This document shows, in pieces, positions 268 through 22,284 of a stretch of 36,999 bases of DNA; the stretch's first letter is position 1, and every line of letters begins with the position of its first letter. The notes under the pieces were generated by a model, which did no database searches, was not told where the DNA came from, and worked only from the letters and a program-made list of their open reading frames with translations. The translations under genes were made by a program, and so were the position numbers. Origin of the DNA: Chloroflexota bacterium (GTDB lineage: Bacteria; Chloroflexota; Anaerolineae; 4572-78; J111); assembly GCA_020049115.1 (NCBI GenBank), contig JAIFLK010000034.1:1-36999 (forward strand), read 5' to 3'.

Positions 268-2979
268 CTATACCTGCAACTGCACGCTAAAGCGTACCGT
301 CGTCCCCTGGCCCAACTCACTCTCCACCCAAATATGGCCGCCACTTTTGATAACCAATTCCTGACAAATGATTAAGCCCAAGCCCGTCCCCGTCTCCTTC
401 CCCGTCCCCACCGTTGTCACATGTTGGTCAATCTTAAACAATTTCTGCTGCGTGGCCTCATCCATGCCCACACCTGTATCAGTAATGGACACCTCGACAT
501 AATGAGGAATGAGGAATTGGGAATTAGGAATTATTAATTCCTGACTCCTAATTCCTAATTCCTCATTCTTAATTCCTATCGTCACCTGACCCCCTGGCGG
601 GGTGAATTTCAACGCGTTATTCGTTAAATTACGAATGATGGTATTCAACATGTTCTCATCTCCATACACCATAACCCCAGGCGCAATCTCATTTAATAAC
701 GTAATTTCCTTAACCTTGGCGACCTCACTCAACACATGCACCGTTTGTTGCGCCACCCCACTCAAATCCAATGACTGGGGCTGATACTCCATCCGCCCCA
801 TTTGCAAGCGCGCCCAATATAACAAATTCTCTAACAACTCAAAAACCCGCCGCGCCGACCTATCCACGGCTGTACTCATCTCTCGCACATCGTTGGGTGT
901 TAAATTATCCGCCATCTCCATCATCAACTCCAAATTCCCTAACAACGGTAAAAATGGCCCCTTCAAATCATGCGCCAAAATGGAGAAAAATTTATCTTTA
1001 TCCAAATTTAATTTAACCAACTGTTCATTGGCCTGCTGTGCTTCTTCATACAAGCGCACATTGTTCATGGCGGTGGCGGCTTGGTCGGCAAAACTCCGTA
1101 ACAACTGCACATCTTCCTCATGATAAGCCCCCACTTGGAAATTATCCAACGTCAGCACGCCCAAAACGGTACGCCCCAGTAACAACGGCGCGCCCATCCA
1201 AGCCCGAATCATGCGGCTGTTTTCCCAAACCTCCCATCGTGGGTCTTCACACACATCGGCAATCAAAATCGGTTGTTGCTCACGAAACACTTGCGCCACA
1301 GGGTTAATAGAATTGATTGAAATACGACTGCCAATATAACTTTCAGCATACCCCGTGCCCCGAGTCAACACCAGGTCAGACCCATCCTGCAAAAAGACAC
1401 TCGCGCCATTATATTGAATAACTTTTCGTAACTGGCTCATGATTTCGGCTAATACTTTATCCCTATCCAAACTACTGTTCAGCATAATCGCCACTTGGTG
1501 CAAACTTTCCGCCACTAGCCGTTGGCGTTGCTCCGACGTGAATAAGCGCGCATTGGTTAAAGCCACCGCCACCTGCCCCGCCAAAGAACGTAATAAACTA
1601 GCATCACCCTCATCTAAACCACCAATATTATCACTCTGCACATCCAACACCCCCACCACCTGACCATCCCGAATAATTGGCACCGCCATCTCCGCCTGAG
1701 TTTCAGGTAACAATGGATTAGGCAACCAATTTTCCACCGCCCGTACATTAGAAACACTCACCACCTGACTACTACGCGCCGCTTGCGCCACCAAACTAAT
1801 CGGCGCATCCAACGAAATGGCATGTCCCCGCTGTTTCATCACCCGCGCCGCCTCGCCCGTCCCTTCCGCCATGATTAATTTCGTTTGAATTGGGTCAACC
1901 AAATAAATATGCACATGATAATAATTAAAACTAACCTTAATGCGATTAACCAATTCAACTAATAACCGATTAAAATCAAGCAAACCATTCAACTGCTCAC
2001 TCAACAAGGCCACCACCTCCAACCGCTGAGTACGCTGTTCCACCCGTTGTTCCAACTCCACATTTAACTTCACCAACTGCTCATTGACCTGCCGCGCCGC
2101 ATTATATAAACGAGCATTACGAATAGCCACCGCCGCATGATTAGCAAATATTTGTAAAATAGACACCTCGGCCTCATCATATCTATTCGCCGTAAAACTA
2201 TCCACCGTTAACACCCCAATTGATTCACCCTCTATCACCAAAGGCGCGCCCATCCAACTAGCAATGGGGTCGCTCTCCGTCCACACTCGCCACCGTACAT
2301 CATGTTTCGTATTCGCTATCAACATACGCTTTTGGCTATTAAATACCATGACTCCAGAGCTACTATCGGTCAACAGCAACGTATTACCCAAATAGGTCGC
2401 CGCAAAACCAATGCCATGCGATACCACCAACTGTTGATTTTCATGTAATAAAACAGAAGCCCCATCAAAAGGCACCACCCGCCCCAATTGTTCCATAATT
2501 ATTTGCAACAATTGCTCCTGGTCTAAGGTACTGTTCAAAACCCTAGATATTTTTCGTAAGCTATCAGATATTTTACGCTGCTGTTGCTGTTCCCGCAACA
2601 AAGTCATCAACCGTAAATGGGTCATAATCCGCGCCAATATTTCGCGATATTGAATCGGTTTCATAATATAATCCACCGCCCCAGCCTCAAACCCCTTCAC
2701 TTTATCCTCTTCACTAGCCAAAGCCGTCATAAAGATAACAGGAATATCTTTAGTTTCTGCATGCGCCTTCAACCGACGGCAAGTTTCAAAGCCATCCAGC
2801 CCAGGCATCATCACATCTAACAAAATAATATGGGGATTCACCAAATGGGCTATCCTCAACCCATCTTCACCATTTAAAGCAGTAACAATATCAAAATCAT
2901 GTTCGCCAAAAAAATTGACTAAGACCTCCAAATTAGCAGGAGTATCATCCACAATTAAAATGGTACTATTTGTAACCAT
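268..2979 (-). CDS. REC-GAF-GAF-GAF histidine kinase
   Basis: Soluble sensor kinase of 903 residues with no membrane segment. An N-terminal receiver domain spans about 5-125, with acidic pair D11/D12, phospho-acceptor D55 (IILLDVMMPG), T85 and K107. Three GAF domains follow at about 155-290, 335-480 and 505-645; the first and third resemble each other more than the second. The DHp helix has H670 in AHDLKGPF, the HDL[KR]GP variant of the H-box. The ATPase domain (about 760-900) has N788 (NLTNNALKFT), DTGVG at 834 and GTGLGL at 863, so it looks active. Residues about 804-826 are a repeat-derived insertion (see finding). The ATG at 2979 is preceded by AAGGA seven bases away. A 273-base repeat-bearing gap separates it from the kinase upstream. 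The receiver domain in front of a kinase suggests its activity is set by phosphorylation from another kinase (inference). Confidence 0.93.
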   Translation of the reverse strand: MVTNSTILIVDDTPANLEVLVNFFGEHDFDIVTALNGEDGLRIAHLVNPHIILLDVMMPGLDGFETCRRLKAHAETKDIPVIFMTALASEEDKVKGFEAGAVDYIMKPIQYREILARIMTHLRLMTLLREQQQQRKISDSLRKISRVLNSTLDQEQLLQIIMEQLGRVVPFDGASVLLHENQQLVVSHGIGFAATYLGNTLLLTDSSSGVMVFNSQKRMLIANTKHDVRWRVWTESDPIASWMGAPLVIEGESIGVLTVDSFTANRYDEAEVSILQIFANHAAVAIRNARLYNAARQVNEQLVKLNVELEQRVEQRTQRLEVVALLSEQLNGLLDFNRLLVELVNRIKVSFNYYHVHIYLVDPIQTKLIMAEGTGEAARVMKQRGHAISLDAPISLVAQAARSSQVVSVSNVRAVENWLPNPLLPETQAEMAVPIIRDGQVVGVLDVQSDNIGGLDEGDASLLRSLAGQVAVALTNARLFTSEQRQRLVAESLHQVAIMLNSSLDRDKVLAEIMSQLRKVIQYNGASVFLQDGSDLVLTRGTGYAESYIGSRISINSINPVAQVFREQQPILIADVCEDPRWEVWENSRMIRAWMGAPLLLGRTVLGVLTLDNFQVGAYHEEDVQLLRSFADQAATAMNNVRLYEEAQQANEQLVKLNLDKDKFFSILAHDLKGPFLPLLGNLELMMEMADNLTPNDVREMSTAVDRSARRVFELLENLLYWARLQMGRMEYQPQSLDLSGVAQQTVHVLSEVAKVKEITLLNEIAPGVMVYGDENMLNTIIRNLTNNALKFTPPGGQVTIGIKNEELGIRSQELIIPNSQFLIPHYVEVSITDTGVGMDEATQQKLFKIDQHVTTVGTGKETGTGLGLIICQELVIKSGGHIWVESELGQGTTVRFSVQLQV

Positions 2980-5571: not shown

Positions 5572-5597
5572 CTACGTAGGAGAGGGTTGGGGTGAGG
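5563..5597. repeat. Palindromic G/C repeat of the GGGGTGAGG family
   Basis: A perfect 22-base palindrome (5565-5586, CCCTCTCCTAC mirrored) is followed by GTTGGGGTGAGG. It encodes the last residues and the stop of the AAA-ATPase-like gene. Related copies are at 208-240, 10321-10349, 27481-27514 and 29789-29868. Confidence 0.75.
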
Positions 5598-7521
5598 TTT
5601 TACGGACAACGCTTTTATATTCCTGCCACACCAAACGGTCATAGCCCACCGACACCACGACATAACAACGCAATTTCAAAAAGCCCACCCCATACACCTG
5701 TTGCAATTTCTCACGATAAATTTTTAGCTGTTTCTTCGCCTTCGTCAAAGCCGATTGCACGGGTTTCAAGGCCAATAACTCAACTTGACTCATGGCCGCC
5801 ACCTGCTCACCCGTTAATTGATGTTTCCCTAACGGGACATACTTAAACTCAATTAAAATATCTAACAAGGCCGAGTGGCGTAAATCAGGCCGCACCAGCA
5901 TGATTAAATCCCCGTAATGTCGCCCAATCGCTGGCTCGGAATCCATGATATAAAACGTATCATTAAATAATAAGGTTAAAAATACGGTCTTAATGGTCAA
6001 CTCATTGGTCGCCTCATAATCCCGATTGGCAAACACCTTAAATTGTTTCCGTTCAATAAATTCACACAGCGGCCCCATCTCCCCTTTTTGATACAATTGC
6101 CGCGTCACCTGTCGCGCCTCATCAATCTCTTGACCCAACGGTAACATTAACTCAAATAACTGTTCAGCGTAGAGCTTCCGTATCACCAAATTAGGAATTT
6201 GCAAAATCAATTCTTCATAAATAGTACGCTCACGGCTCAACGTGACCACCCCAAAAAAATATAACAACGAGGCCATGAAGGTCGTGTCATGCTCTGGCTT
6301 CAACATCTCCACCACCCCAAAACGGTTGGCTAATTGGCTAATCACCAGCGGCTCATGCTCGCCCAAAAGTTGCGTAATGAGTTCATAACCATGCGGCAAT
6401 TGAGCAATATAAGCAATTTTATTCCTATCCATCGCTAAATTATGGTCTAATATCTGTGACGGAAATTTACATTCGCGCTGTAAATATTTCAAAAAATATA
6501 AGACTAAGGTTGGGTTATAAAGTTTCCCCCCCTGTAAATAATTCGGGGATTTAGTCATCAGGTGACTTGAAGTCACCTGATGACTAGACCACATCCCCTG
6601 TAAATTTACAGGGGGAAGTTTTTCAGAGCTACCCCCTGCTACAGGGGGGAGGTCATAACTAAAGCTATAGCCATTATAAAATGTTCGCATCATCGTTAAA
6701 CCCTCCTCGACCTGCTCCGCCGAAAAATGGCACTGTTGACCAATTTGAGCTAACACCGCGGCCACTTCCGTTTCCTTAAAGCCACATAAATCATTAAACT
6801 GGTGCATAGAATAGATATTTTCCGAAATATTAAAGCCGCTCGTAATATCACTCATCACCACCGGCGACACCCCCGTAATAAACACACGGTCAATCCCCTG
6901 CCCTTCCGTCCCAAATTTAATGGCCCGAAAAATCGTCTTCAGTAGCCCCTCCCCTTTCACCAACGCCTCATACCGTTCATGGCTATCCCCATGCCCCGCC
7001 ATTAACACCTCATTGGCAAAATTGTCATATTCATCAATTAACAAATAAATCTTATACGGGGTACGCGACACCGCCGCCAAAATTGATTGAAATGAACGTA
7101 ACCCATCTGTTGGGTCAAGCTGAATTTCGTGGTCAAAATAGTCACGATAGGCTTGAATAAACTGTTCGGCTTGACCATTCAAATGATTATGTAACTGTTG
7201 CTTAATCTCAGGAATATCGCCCGTTGTATCAATCAGCGAGAAATTCCATTTCAAAATGAAATATTTATTATGGCGCGGCGTGGGTTTCTGCCCAATGGCT
7301 AAATGACCAAACAAAAGGTCAAACTCAGGAGCGCGCCGTATATCGTAATAATTATGCAATACCGACACCCACAGACTCTTCCCAAAGCGGCGCGGCCGCA
7401 GAAACAGCAACACGCTGCCCACCGACTCCATAGTCTCAATTGCGGCGGTACGGTCAATATAAAAATAGTCCTCCTGGATTATCTTGTAAAAATCAGCATT
7501 ACCGTAAGGAAGTCGTATCAT
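5572..7521 (-). CDS. AAA-ATPase-like / PD-(D/E)XK nuclease-superfamily protein
   Basis: About 649 residues of the AAA-ATPase_like (PF09820) plus C-terminal PD-(D/E)XK (PF08011-like) family, which is amplified in some large bacterial genomes; its cellular role is not established. A P-loop-like RPRRFGKSL is at about 42-50, Walker B IYLLIDEYD at about 158-166 and a sensor strand FITGVSPVV near 214. The nuclease-fold motif is GD at 537-538 and EFK at 558-560. Start choice: the ATG at 7521 has GGAGG five bases upstream. An upstream ATG at 7533 abuts the stop of the preceding kinase gene and itself contains that GGAGG, so it is less likely. Residues about 291-332 are an in-frame palindromic insertion between conserved FYNGYSFSYD and KLYNPTLVL. 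The C-terminus (KTSPQPSPT) is read from an intergenic repeat, whose palindrome supplies the stop TAG. It is probably co-transcribed with the kinase 12 bases upstream. Confidence 0.88.
   Translation of the reverse strand: MIRLPYGNADFYKIIQEDYFYIDRTAAIETMESVGSVLLFLRPRRFGKSLWVSVLHNYYDIRRAPEFDLLFGHLAIGQKPTPRHNKYFILKWNFSLIDTTGDIPEIKQQLHNHLNGQAEQFIQAYRDYFDHEIQLDPTDGLRSFQSILAAVSRTPYKIYLLIDEYDNFANEVLMAGHGDSHERYEALVKGEGLLKTIFRAIKFGTEGQGIDRVFITGVSPVVMSDITSGFNISENIYSMHQFNDLCGFKETEVAAVLAQIGQQCHFSAEQVEEGLTMMRTFYNGYSFSYDLPPVAGGSSEKLPPVNLQGMWSSHQVTSSHLMTKSPNYLQGGKLYNPTLVLYFLKYLQRECKFPSQILDHNLAMDRNKIAYIAQLPHGYELITQLLGEHEPLVISQLANRFGVVEMLKPEHDTTFMASLLYFFGVVTLSRERTIYEELILQIPNLVIRKLYAEQLFELMLPLGQEIDEARQVTRQLYQKGEMGPLCEFIERKQFKVFANRDYEATNELTIKTVFLTLLFNDTFYIMDSEPAIGRHYGDLIMLVRPDLRHSALLDILIEFKYVPLGKHQLTGEQVAAMSQVELLALKPVQSALTKAKKQLKIYREKLQQVYGVGFLKLRCYVVVSVGYDRLVWQEYKSVVRKTSPQPSPT
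6526..6651. repeat. In-frame palindromic element inside the AAA-ATPase-like gene
   Basis: About 126 bases made of nested palindromes: a perfect 33-base one (6553-6585), a perfect 20-base one CCCCTGTAAATTTACAGGGG (6595-6614) and CCCCCTG/CAGGGGG (6632-6648). Its layout matches the intergenic element at 22162-22284. It adds about 42 codons without breaking the frame. Confidence 0.8.
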
Positions 7522-7533
7522 TTTAGCCTCCAT

Positions 7534-11731: not shown

Positions 11732-14389
11732 TTAATTCGCCAACGGAATGGTGAAATAAAATTCAGAGCCATGACCTTCTTGGCTAGACAACCCCATTTC
11801 GCCTGCGTGCATTTGCACTAATTCCTGACAAATCGTTAAGCCCAAGCCCGTCCCTTCATGCCGCCGAGTTTTAGACATGTCCACCTGTTTAAAGCGTTCA
11901 AAAACAATCGCTTGTTTATCGGCGGGAATACCCATGCCCGTATCCATGATGGCAAAACGCATTTTCGGCGGAGTAGTTTGCGGCACAGTCACGTGAATCG
12001 TGACCGAACCTTGCTCGGTAAACTTAACGCCATTGTCCACCAAATTTAATAATATTTGCTTGAGCCGCGTTTTATCGGCCAATATCAACGGCAAGTTAGG
12101 GGCTGCCTCCAACTGTAGTTCAACGGGTTTATTTTTCACCCATAACCCCGCCGCCGCCATAACATCTTGTAACACCTCAGACACATCTAAAGACTCTAAC
12201 ACTAATTCCATCATGCCCGCTTCAATTTTGGAAATATCCAAAATATCATTCAAAATAGTCAGCAGGTGCTGCCCACTATTATAAATCAATTCCACATCAT
12301 GTTGCGCCAGCTCAGGCAAATCGCCACTAATGCCCAACATTAACAGCTCGGCAAAACCCAAAATGGCATTCAATGGTGTCCGTAATTCATGGCTCATAAT
12401 GGTGAGAAATTCCGATTTCAGGCGGTCTAATTCTTGTAATTTAACGATGGTTTCTTTCTGCTGCGCCAACAGCCGCGCATTATCCACCGCAATGGCGATT
12501 TGGTCACCAATAGATTGAATTAATTTAATTTCCGCCGTCGTAAAACGGTTAACCTGCTCACTTTGCACATCTAATACCCCTAAAACCTTACGCCCTTTCC
12601 GCATCGGCACCGCCAACTCAGATTGGGTTTTAGGCAACAATACATTACGTACAAAGTTAGGCACATCATCCACCCGATTGCTCACAAAAGGTTCATTGGT
12701 CGCCGCCACTGTCCCCACAATGCCTCGCCCCACAGGTAAACGATGCCCTTTAATTTTAAGTTGCCGCCCCACTTCGCCATAGCCTTGCACCATGACCAAT
12801 TCGTTGGTAGCCTCGTCCATCAAATAGATATGCGTATGGTAAAAATCGAACTCATTTTGCACCCGATTCACCACATAACTTAACAATTCATCCAAATCCA
12901 AAATAGCCGTAATTTGGCGACTAATATCGGTACTGGTCTCCAAAACCCGTGTATAATCTCGATTGAGCGCATTAACTTCTTTCAACTGAGCAATGGTCGC
13001 CTTTTGCTCACTCAACAAACGAGCGTTATCTACTGCAATGGCCGATTGGTCAGCAATGGATTGCATGAGCGCGACATCTTCTGCCATAAAACGATTGAGC
13101 TGCTCACTTTGAATATCTAACACGCCCAAAACTTGGTTGCCTTTACGTAACGGCACCGCCAACTCGGCCTGCGTCTGCGGTAGTAAGGCATTTCGTACAA
13201 AATTAGGCACTTCATTTACATTATTACTTAAGAAAGGTTCGCCCCGACTCGCCACCAACCCCACAATCCCCTGGCCGAGATGCAGCTGATGCCCTTTGGC
13301 CTTCAATTGCTTACCCACTTCACCCGACCCCGCTAACATTTCTAATTGTTTCGTCTGGTCATTGACCAAATAAACATGCACATGGTAATAATCAAAACTT
13401 TCCTTAACCTGATTAACCATGGTTTCTAACAAATGTTCTAAGTCAAGAATCGAGTTTAAGTGACCGCTTAATTGCGTAATTAACTCCAACCGATAGGTAC
13501 GGTCAACCACCCGTTCCTCTAACAAGGCGCGAGCTTGTTGTAACTCCGCTTGCAACTGCTTCGCCTCCGTTACATTCCGCACCACCGCCACGACCTGGTC
13601 ATTCATTAAGGGCGAGAAACGAGCTTCAAAATATCTCAAGCCATTCAACACAGGCATGGCGTATTCAACCTGACAAATGGACTTCGTTTCAATACTCTGA
13701 TTAATCGCCGCTTGAAACATGTTGGCTAAATCTGGCGGCAAAACCTCAAGCAGTCGTCGCCCCAACAACTGGTCAGGCGGCAAATATAAATCTCCCATCG
13801 CGGCTTTATAATCCAAATACGTTCCCTGAGCATCAAAGCGAAAATACAGGTCAGGCAAGGCCGCAAACACCGCCTCCAACTCGAAGGTTTTATGTTGCCA
13901 GGCCTGCGTATGCACCGCTATCTCCTGTTCTAGCCGTTGATGATAGAGTTTCTTATCCGTCACATCGTATAAGGCGACAAATAAAGCCGCTTCGCTCGCA
14001 AAGGTAATCGGTTGAAACGATATTGTTACCCAAAAAAGCGAGTTATCGGCTCGCCGCACTTGTAACTCATAGTTATGAACAAACCCTTGTGCCTTAATTA
14101 AGGCTAACAGATGTTGGCGGTCAGCCGCGTCATTATAAAAGTTAAGCATGGGGCGATGTAATAACTCCGCGACTGAGTAACCGAATAACGCGGCAAAGGG
14201 CGCATTAACCGCTAAAACCACACTATCCGCGAGCCGTGTCACCACGACTGGCACAGGTAAAATCTGAATCATGGTTTCAAAATAATTGGCCTGCTCAGGG
14301 GCTAATTGCGCTCGCAATTGCTCATTTTCTTGGCGCAATCGGGCTAATTCTGCTTTTAATGCTGCTTCATCTAATTCAAAATTATTCAT
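11732..14389 (-). CDS. PAS-PAS-GAF-GAF histidine kinase
   Basis: A soluble kinase of 885 residues. A short N-terminal coiled coil (about 5-30) precedes PAS domains at about 38-148 and 165-280, a coiled coil near 275-300, then GAF domains at about 318-455 and 498-640. The two GAF domains are near copies (both read GIVG, LAVP and RKG at matching places), pointing to internal duplication. DHp has H667 (SHELRTPLN). The ATPase domain has N786, DTGMG at 816 and GTGLGL at 846. The start ATG overlaps the stop of the upstream REC-kinase by eight bases, with GGAAGGG seven bases before it, so the two are probably translationally coupled. It ends the group that begins with the peptide-binding lipoprotein. 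Signals sensed by PAS and GAF are cytoplasmic and cannot be named from sequence. Confidence 0.94.
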   Translation of the reverse strand: MNNFELDEAALKAELARLRQENEQLRAQLAPEQANYFETMIQILPVPVVVTRLADSVVLAVNAPFAALFGYSVAELLHRPMLNFYNDAADRQHLLALIKAQGFVHNYELQVRRADNSLFWVTISFQPITFASEAALFVALYDVTDKKLYHQRLEQEIAVHTQAWQHKTFELEAVFAALPDLYFRFDAQGTYLDYKAAMGDLYLPPDQLLGRRLLEVLPPDLANMFQAAINQSIETKSICQVEYAMPVLNGLRYFEARFSPLMNDQVVAVVRNVTEAKQLQAELQQARALLEERVVDRTYRLELITQLSGHLNSILDLEHLLETMVNQVKESFDYYHVHVYLVNDQTKQLEMLAGSGEVGKQLKAKGHQLHLGQGIVGLVASRGEPFLSNNVNEVPNFVRNALLPQTQAELAVPLRKGNQVLGVLDIQSEQLNRFMAEDVALMQSIADQSAIAVDNARLLSEQKATIAQLKEVNALNRDYTRVLETSTDISRQITAILDLDELLSYVVNRVQNEFDFYHTHIYLMDEATNELVMVQGYGEVGRQLKIKGHRLPVGRGIVGTVAATNEPFVSNRVDDVPNFVRNVLLPKTQSELAVPMRKGRKVLGVLDVQSEQVNRFTTAEIKLIQSIGDQIAIAVDNARLLAQQKETIVKLQELDRLKSEFLTIMSHELRTPLNAILGFAELLMLGISGDLPELAQHDVELIYNSGQHLLTILNDILDISKIEAGMMELVLESLDVSEVLQDVMAAAGLWVKNKPVELQLEAAPNLPLILADKTRLKQILLNLVDNGVKFTEQGSVTIHVTVPQTTPPKMRFAIMDTGMGIPADKQAIVFERFKQVDMSKTRRHEGTGLGLTICQELVQMHAGEMGLSSQEGHGSEFYFTIPLAN

Positions 14390-15536
14390 CAGCTGACCCT
14401 TCCTTCATCGGCAATGTAAATTTTACAGTTGTTCCCTTGCCCAACGTACTCTCCACCCAAATGCGACCACTATTACGCTCCACCATTTCTTTACACAAAA
14501 TTAAGCCTAAGCCCGTCCCCTGCTCTTTAGCCGTCCCCAACGTGCTGTGAAACTCGCCCACCTGAAATAATTTGGCGATATTTTCCTCACTAATCCCCAC
14601 CCCAGTATCTATCACCGCCACTTCAACATACCCCCCTGAATCAGGGGGGACAGAGGGGGGTGTTTCCTGTGCTGCCAGCGTCACCATGCCCCCATGAGGT
14701 GTGAATTTTAGGGCATTAGCTGTTAAATTACGAATCACCGTATCCAAAATATTTTCATCGGCATAGACCATTAATTCAGACGAGATTTGCAAACTAAAAG
14801 TAATATTTTTCTCAATCGCTCTGGCCGATAACAAATTAATTGTTTGTTCGGCAATTGGGCTTAAATAAAGTGACTGTGGCGCATACGACAACCGCCCTAA
14901 CTGAATTTGCGACCATTTCAGTAAATTTTCCAGCAAATCCATCACCTGCCTCGCGGAACGGTAAATACTAGAGGTCATATCCTTAATATCTTCTGGACTA
15001 AAAACCTCTACCATTTCCATGAGGAGTTCTGCATTCCCCAAGACAGGCCAAAACGGCCCCCGTAAATCATGCGCCACAATAGACAGAAATTTATCTTTAT
15101 CCGTATTAGCCTTTTGCAAATTTTGGGTCAAATTACGAATCCGCAAATGGGTGGTTAGCCGCGCTAAAACCTCTTCATGCTGAATCGGTTTGGTCACATA
15201 ATCCACCCCGCCCACCTTAAACGCCTTTACCTTATGCTCAGCCTCCGTTAAAGCCGTCATAAAAATAACGGGAATATCCGCCGTGCGCGGGTCAGCCTTC
15301 AAACGACTACAAGTTTCAAACCCATCAATGCCTGGCATCATGACATCAAGCAAAATAATGTCAGGCCAACCATGCACCGTGCGCTGTAAACCACTTTCAC
15401 CACTACGAGCCATTAGCACTTCAAAACCTAGCTCCTTAAGATAATTCGTAATCACTTTTAAGTTAGTAGGGTTATCATCTATTACCAAAACCGTATAATC
15501 GGGTGGATGTAAGTCACCTAGTATCTCTGCTGACAT
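14382..15536 (-). CDS. REC-histidine kinase (reverse hybrid)
   Basis: A compact soluble protein of 384 residues. A receiver domain (about 14-130) has D20/D21, phospho-acceptor D64 (ILLDVMMPGI), T95 and K116. It is followed directly by DHp with H156 (AHDLRGPF) and an ATPase domain with N274, DTGVG at 310 and GTGLGL at 340. No other sensor domain is present, so its input is most simply phosphorylation of its receiver by another kinase (inference). Residues about 291-303, including PPSVPPDSGG, are a G/C-rich repeat-like insertion in the ATPase loop just before the DTGVG motif. The ATG at 15536 has AGAGG six bases upstream. The stop of the preceding PAS-PAS kinase is only three bases away, and the stop of this gene overlaps the next start by eight bases. 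The pairing with the ATPase-degenerate kinase upstream is notable. Confidence 0.93.
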   Translation of the reverse strand: MSAEILGDLHPPDYTVLVIDDNPTNLKVITNYLKELGFEVLMARSGESGLQRTVHGWPDIILLDVMMPGIDGFETCSRLKADPRTADIPVIFMTALTEAEHKVKAFKVGGVDYVTKPIQHEEVLARLTTHLRIRNLTQNLQKANTDKDKFLSIVAHDLRGPFWPVLGNAELLMEMVEVFSPEDIKDMTSSIYRSARQVMDLLENLLKWSQIQLGRLSYAPQSLYLSPIAEQTINLLSARAIEKNITFSLQISSELMVYADENILDTVIRNLTANALKFTPHGGMVTLAAQETPPSVPPDSGGYVEVAVIDTGVGISEENIAKLFQVGEFHSTLGTAKEQGTGLGLILCKEMVERNSGRIWVESTLGKGTTVKFTLPMKEGSADE

Positions 15537-22161: not shown

Positions 22162-22284
22162 ATTAATTCCACCTGTAAAAAATTCGGTGATGGTTAGACT
22201 TCCAATGTCTTGAAGACATCGGAAGTCTGACTAGAAAAGCATCAGCCATGCCTTATCACCTAAAAATTTACAGGTAGAATTAAT
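22162..22284. mobile_element. 123-bp MITE-like element with 18-bp terminal inverted repeats
   Basis: The ends ATTAATTCCACCTGTAAA (22162-22179) and TTTACAGGTAGAATTAAT (22267-22284) match with one mismatch. A 33-base central palindrome lies at 22196-22228 (one mismatch). No coding capacity. It sits between the hybrid kinase and the peptide-binding lipoprotein. The core (CCTGTAAA, AATTCGG, TTAG-palindrome-CTAGA) is shared with the insertion in the AAA-ATPase-like gene. Confidence 0.7.

Follow-up and report, generated by a model that had tools for sequence, protein, structure and literature searches.

Palindromic elements carried in frame by protein genes are best known from Rickettsia, and to our knowledge the agent that mobilizes these RPEs there has not been established. 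Several RPE families are kept in frame in unrelated genes of a single genome, as reviewed in PMC10969869. REPs are also found inside genes, and some RAYTs are flanked by TIRs (PMC3733652); in the REPtron layout, a RAYT gene lies between inverted REPs (PMC2817692). MITEs have been described in a repeat-rich giant sulfur bacterium (PMC4853749). The locus compared with these systems here lies in a 36,999-nucleotide stretch of Chloroflexota DNA (the window). Its source is a fragmented MAG (4.44 Mb, 397 contigs, 56% complete), which is of the same family as Anaerolineales bacterium HSG25 (Chloroflexota).

Anatomy of the insert and its host gene

A sequence-only reading of the window had described a palindromic, mobile-type repeat of 42 codons (6526-6651) placed in frame in an AAA-ATPase-like gene. 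The sequence is present and the gene is open throughout, with a reading frame that continues uninterrupted across the palindromic insert. The 42 codons are indeed palindromic, but they hold two elements side by side rather than one nested repeat: an 88-bp MITE and a second, smaller palindrome (Table 1). The MITE consists of an outer shell with 12-bp terminal inverted repeats and an inner 35-bp palindrome (core 1), across which the coding strand reads SSHQVTSSHLMTK. Together with one 8-bp duplication, the MITE makes up 96 bp, or 32 codons. Judged by its sequence, the smaller palindrome probably belongs with the CCCCCCTGA-n-TCAGGGGGG repeats and is separate from the MITE; the same repeat forms the in-frame palindrome in the kinase gene at 14631. 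It can account for the extra residues beyond the 32 of the MITE.

Table 1. Positions of the insert, its parts and related features (window coordinates unless a locus is named)
Feature	Position	Strand	Remarks
AAA-ATPase-like host gene	5572..7533	(-)	653 aa, PF09820, frame intact
In-frame MITE, 88 bp	6528..6615	(-)	absent from homologues
Terminal inverted repeat CCCCCTGTAAAT	6528..6539		family consensus CCACCTGTAAAT
Terminal inverted repeat ATTTACAGGGGG	6604..6615		
Target-site duplication copy AAGTTTCC	6520..6527		8 bp, the length typical of the family
Target-site duplication copy AAGTTTTT	6616..6623		6/8 identical to AAGTTTCC
Inner perfect palindrome (core 1), 35 bp, TAGTCATCAGGTGACTT-G-AAGTCACCTGATGACTA	6552..6586		124 copies genome-wide
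Second small palindrome, CCCCCTG-CTA-CAGGGGG	6632..6648		adjoins the MITE
Intergenic MITE, same shell family, different core	22169..22277		duplication AATTAATT / AATTAATG
In-frame palindromic insert, HATPase domain	507..568		histidine-kinase-like gene 268-2979
CCCCCCTGAATCAGGGGGG palindrome in frame, same HATPase linker	14631..14649		histidine-kinase-like gene 14382-15536
RAYT gene	L283:1261-1857	(-)	flanked on both sides by GGAGTCCAAA palindrome
RAYT gene	L284:1270-1950	(-)	flanked on both sides by GGAGTCCAAA palindrome

The host protein matches PF09820 with an E value of 1.1e-44, and the columns invariant in a 14-sequence alignment include the P-loop (RPRRFGKS), IDEYDN, and C-terminal EFKY residues. 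A stretch of ∼39 residues between FSYD and YNP is unique to it, being absent in all 27 aligned paralogues and homologues, a set drawn from its own genome, Anaerolineales, Ca. Parabeggiatoa, Desulfobacteraceae, and other genomes. Aligning paralogues, as the sequence-only reading had proposed, thus finds the insert in none of them; the imperfect duplication lies just outside the MITE. Some homologues have ∼5 additional residues at this position, marking it as a variable linker. When the flanks are joined, an open frame results, SSGKLYNPTLVL (GKLYNPTLVL), similar to the SKLYNP of homologues. In an AlphaFold2 model that is poor overall (mean pLDDT 55.8), the insert has a pLDDT of 22-32, lacks secondary structure, and sits between two helices. 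Peptides predicted to span a junction of the insert-bearing ATPase include MWSSHQVTSSHLMTK. The ATPase C-terminus (TSPQPSPT; 5572-5610) is encoded by a further repeat, which contains a CCTCTCCTACGTAGGAGAGG palindrome, so that the 3' end of the gene may be repeat-derived as well.

Shells, cores, and RAYT genes

Sixty paired-end copies of the shell, gathered from sampled loci, have 12-bp terminal inverted repeats, CCACCTGTAAAT / ATTTACAGGTGG, and end in CCACC/GGTGG. An exact 8-bp duplication flanks 27 of these 60 complete shells versus 0.70 expected from shuffled flanks, and allowing one mismatch raises this to 39 of 60 versus 2.58 expected; duplications of 7 or 9 bp show no excess among the same copies. 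The 8-bp excess gives the shell family the signature of a transposon. Its copies are mostly 81-126 bp long and lack a transposase gene, and one outer arm has 109 matches genome-wide. The kinship proposed earlier with an intergenic element at 22162-22284 holds for the outer arms but not for the inner palindrome, which differs. No full-length autonomous parent with shell ends was found in the 437 kb sampled from this 56% complete genome, and none of the six end pairs spaced 0.5-4 kb apart in that sample has matching 8-bp flanks. No covariation was seen between the two shell arms, so that structural conservation of the shell as a whole is unsupported. A frame-friendly length was rejected as a family trait, as the 60 shells fall into the three classes of (length+8) mod 3 as 21/25/14. 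One-armed shells at L005 and L170 have an 8-bp duplication that lies a few bases at most from the core, as though one arm had been deleted after insertion; these are few, and one-armed elements with duplications abutting the core show no clear overall excess.

The cores also exist as repeat families independently of the shell. Core 1 (CATCAGGTGACTTNAAGTCACCTGATG, up to 2 mismatches) occurs at 124 places in the 4.44 Mb and its reversed control at none, so that chance does not explain it. Its length (35 bp, against 20-40 bp in REPs), high copy number, and chiefly extragenic location are those of a REP; of 140 sites sampled, only 4 fall within long ORFs resembling real proteins. Every one of the 60 shells encloses a single core, taken from seven unrelated families (20, 17, 10, 6, 3, 3, and 1 shells), and the hairpins of these seven families lie mostly outside shells. 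Core 1 is also found within other inverted-repeat contexts. Other shells with the same inner palindromes (TAGGACTTACGCA, GTCTCGTCAAGCGTGAATTAATG, and CTCAGTATATCAACATTTT) were observed at L152 and L189; at L210, L213, and L218; and at L139; core sharing therefore reaches past the CCACCTG shell. Pairing within cores is kept, with 29 paired double changes versus 3.05 expected if the two sides were independent, a figure inflated by subfamily ancestry. The pooled flank consensus of the inner palindromes contains neither a GTAG nor a CGTC tag.

Two Y1 transposase genes are present in the genome, and both pass the NCBIfam RAYT model NF047646 (102.8 and 98.3 bits; cut-off 80). The palindromes around them differ in the stem, belonging to the core-2 family at one gene and to a core-2 variant at the other. 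Because core 2 flanks RAYT genes, a single-strand transposase of the Y1 type is probably what spreads it. At least this family therefore appears tied to single-strand transposition; we infer by extension the same for core 1, next to which no RAYT was seen in the genome examined.

In-frame hairpins in other proteins and genomes

A search for further in-gene copies, also suggested by the sequence-only reading, finds core 1 in frame at L104 (a PMT-type glycosyltransferase), L211 (a winged-helix AAA ATPase), and L214 (a membrane protein), always as the peptide HQVTSSH. The core peptide is missing from six orthologues of the L211 protein (55-58% identity), which are ∼5 residues shorter there, although the insert ends are not sharp because the insert replaces or overlaps some aligned residues. 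A clean empty homologue was available for neither L104 nor L214.

The 437-kb sample, window included, contains 131 hairpins, 107 of them multi-copy. Just 11 of these 107 lie within long ORFs versus 72.3 expected by position, a depletion of about sixfold. About a dozen sampled proteins besides the ATPase thus carry similar in-frame hairpins. Identified by motif alone, these hosts include a SpoIIE-like phosphatase, a protein kinase, an FGE-type protein, and histidine kinases. Of the paralogues that were available, several are without the insert and others have linkers of varying length. Genes are thus strongly purged of hairpins, and the survivors are frame-keeping copies in variable linkers. 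Extrapolation would put in-frame hairpins on the order of a hundred per genome.

One HATPase linker has been struck again and again, in two genera and by in-frame palindromes that differ: twice in the window (507-568 and 14631-14649), and at L279 (15260-15319), L311 (6538), and L313 (11986). Across the window (1-36999), long ORFs are mostly on the minus strand and blocks repeat at histidine-kinase-like positions, which suggests that sensor kinases are arrayed in tandem.

Per 100 kb, the source genome has 32.0 hairpins and HSG25 has 30.5, versus 5.5, 5.6, and 2.0 in three genomes that are more distant. In 200 kb of HSG25 there are four in-frame cases, with palindromes other than those of the source genome, and two of the four occur there as single copies; the three more distant genomes yield one doubtful case. 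The shell arm was found in 0 of 60 relatives, and core 1 in 0 of 10 genomes in which the host protein has homologues. No plasmid match was found, and the exact core was not found in viral contigs, where two matches to a 19-base arm pattern could be explained by chance. No Rfam family was detected in the window. Literature searches returned no account of this MITE family or of in-frame palindromes in Chloroflexota, in keeping with the earlier remark that the family is not known to have been described, although such searches do not prove absence.

Origin of the insert and its relation to known systems

The length of the target duplications points to a DDE-type transposase, and the insert is very probably a non-autonomous MITE that was moved by such an enzyme, landed in the ATPase linker, and was kept in frame. 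A shell built round an exchangeable inner palindrome would have entered between the two helices of the ATPase. Because 96 bp is divisible by three and the landing strand is free of stops, the protein would have gained 32 residues and the copy would have survived selection. The mobile-type reading is borne out by homologues without the insert, family-wide 8-bp target duplications, and more in-frame copies in other proteins, with the caveat that the duplication of this copy is imperfect (6/8). We infer the moving transposase, the route of core exchange, and translation of a peptide that is simply tolerated; least certain are the identity of the shell-moving enzyme, core swapping, and any effect of the inserted residues.

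The REP-like inner palindromes, the two RAYT genes placed between such palindromes, and the known in-frame insertion of RPEs (PMC10969869) could also mean that the whole 88-bp unit is a REP- or RPE-like element moved by a RAYT-type Y1 transposase and not a DDE MITE. This is unlikely given the exact 8-bp duplications at the outer ends of the shell, as known IS200/IS605 members have neither terminal inverted repeats nor larger target duplications (PMC2817692), and given the missing GTAG and CGTC tags. An assembly artefact, conceivable in a fragmented MAG of 397 contigs, is very improbable when duplications occur family-wide, the frame is intact, and independent in-frame cases appear on other contigs and in HSG25. 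Least credible of all is a normal conserved ATPase loop or small domain that is palindromic in its DNA by chance. A variable linker with ∼5 extra residues in some homologues would suit such a loop, but no homologue, from unrelated genomes or otherwise, has the inserted residues, and the same DNA occurs more than 100 times elsewhere, mostly outside genes. These dispersed copies refute the strict form of that explanation.

The inserted peptides could instead be adaptive loops, recruited for their usefulness and not simply tolerated, as might be supposed when the same HATPase linker is struck in several kinases of two genera. We consider this improbable, since the sixfold depletion from long ORFs and the placement in length-variable linkers are what mere tolerance predicts. 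A broader form of the MITE reading is offered tentatively, as something possible yet rather doubtful: in a two-tier nested element, MITE shells would always enclose exchangeable REP-type hairpins of RAYT origin, so that shell and single-strand transposases share one element, and in-frame insertions would be a general source of loops in a free-living family of Chloroflexota.

Compared with other MITEs (Nezha, Correia/NEMIS, ERIC, QMITE, and those of Thiomargarita), this family is likewise short and non-autonomous, with terminal inverted repeats, target duplications, many copies, and some intragenic members. It differs in that the interior is always a REP-like palindrome, itself a repeat family, and in that no parent insertion sequence is known. 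The inner palindromes resemble REP/BIME elements and RAYT REPtrons or TIRtrons in being dispersed hairpins, one family of which, with its variant, brackets RAYT genes; unlike REPs, they have no GTAG or CGTC tag consensus, and many copies lie inside a MITE shell with target duplications.

The comparison with Rickettsia RPEs drawn in the sequence-only reading is an apt analogy, as short palindromic repeats again lie in frame in unrelated protein genes, but it does not extend to construction. Here the ends are 12-bp inverted repeats with 8-bp duplications, the REP/RAYT-type cores are exchangeable, most copies are extragenic, and the host is one of the Chloroflexota. The CGTC-tagged end (PMC3733652) was not encountered, the shell ends being CCACC/GGTGG and the core flanks tagless. 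The four proteins carrying core 1 gave no RPE match in NCBIfam, a weak negative, since RPE models are only presumed to be in that library. In-frame palindromes of Chloroflexota that have target duplications and, for one hairpin family, RAYT neighbours make the question of mobilization testable, and within one genome mobile hairpins lengthen the linkers of proteins from several unrelated families. In its working the insert is like an RPE; its build is that of a MITE, and its core is REP-like.
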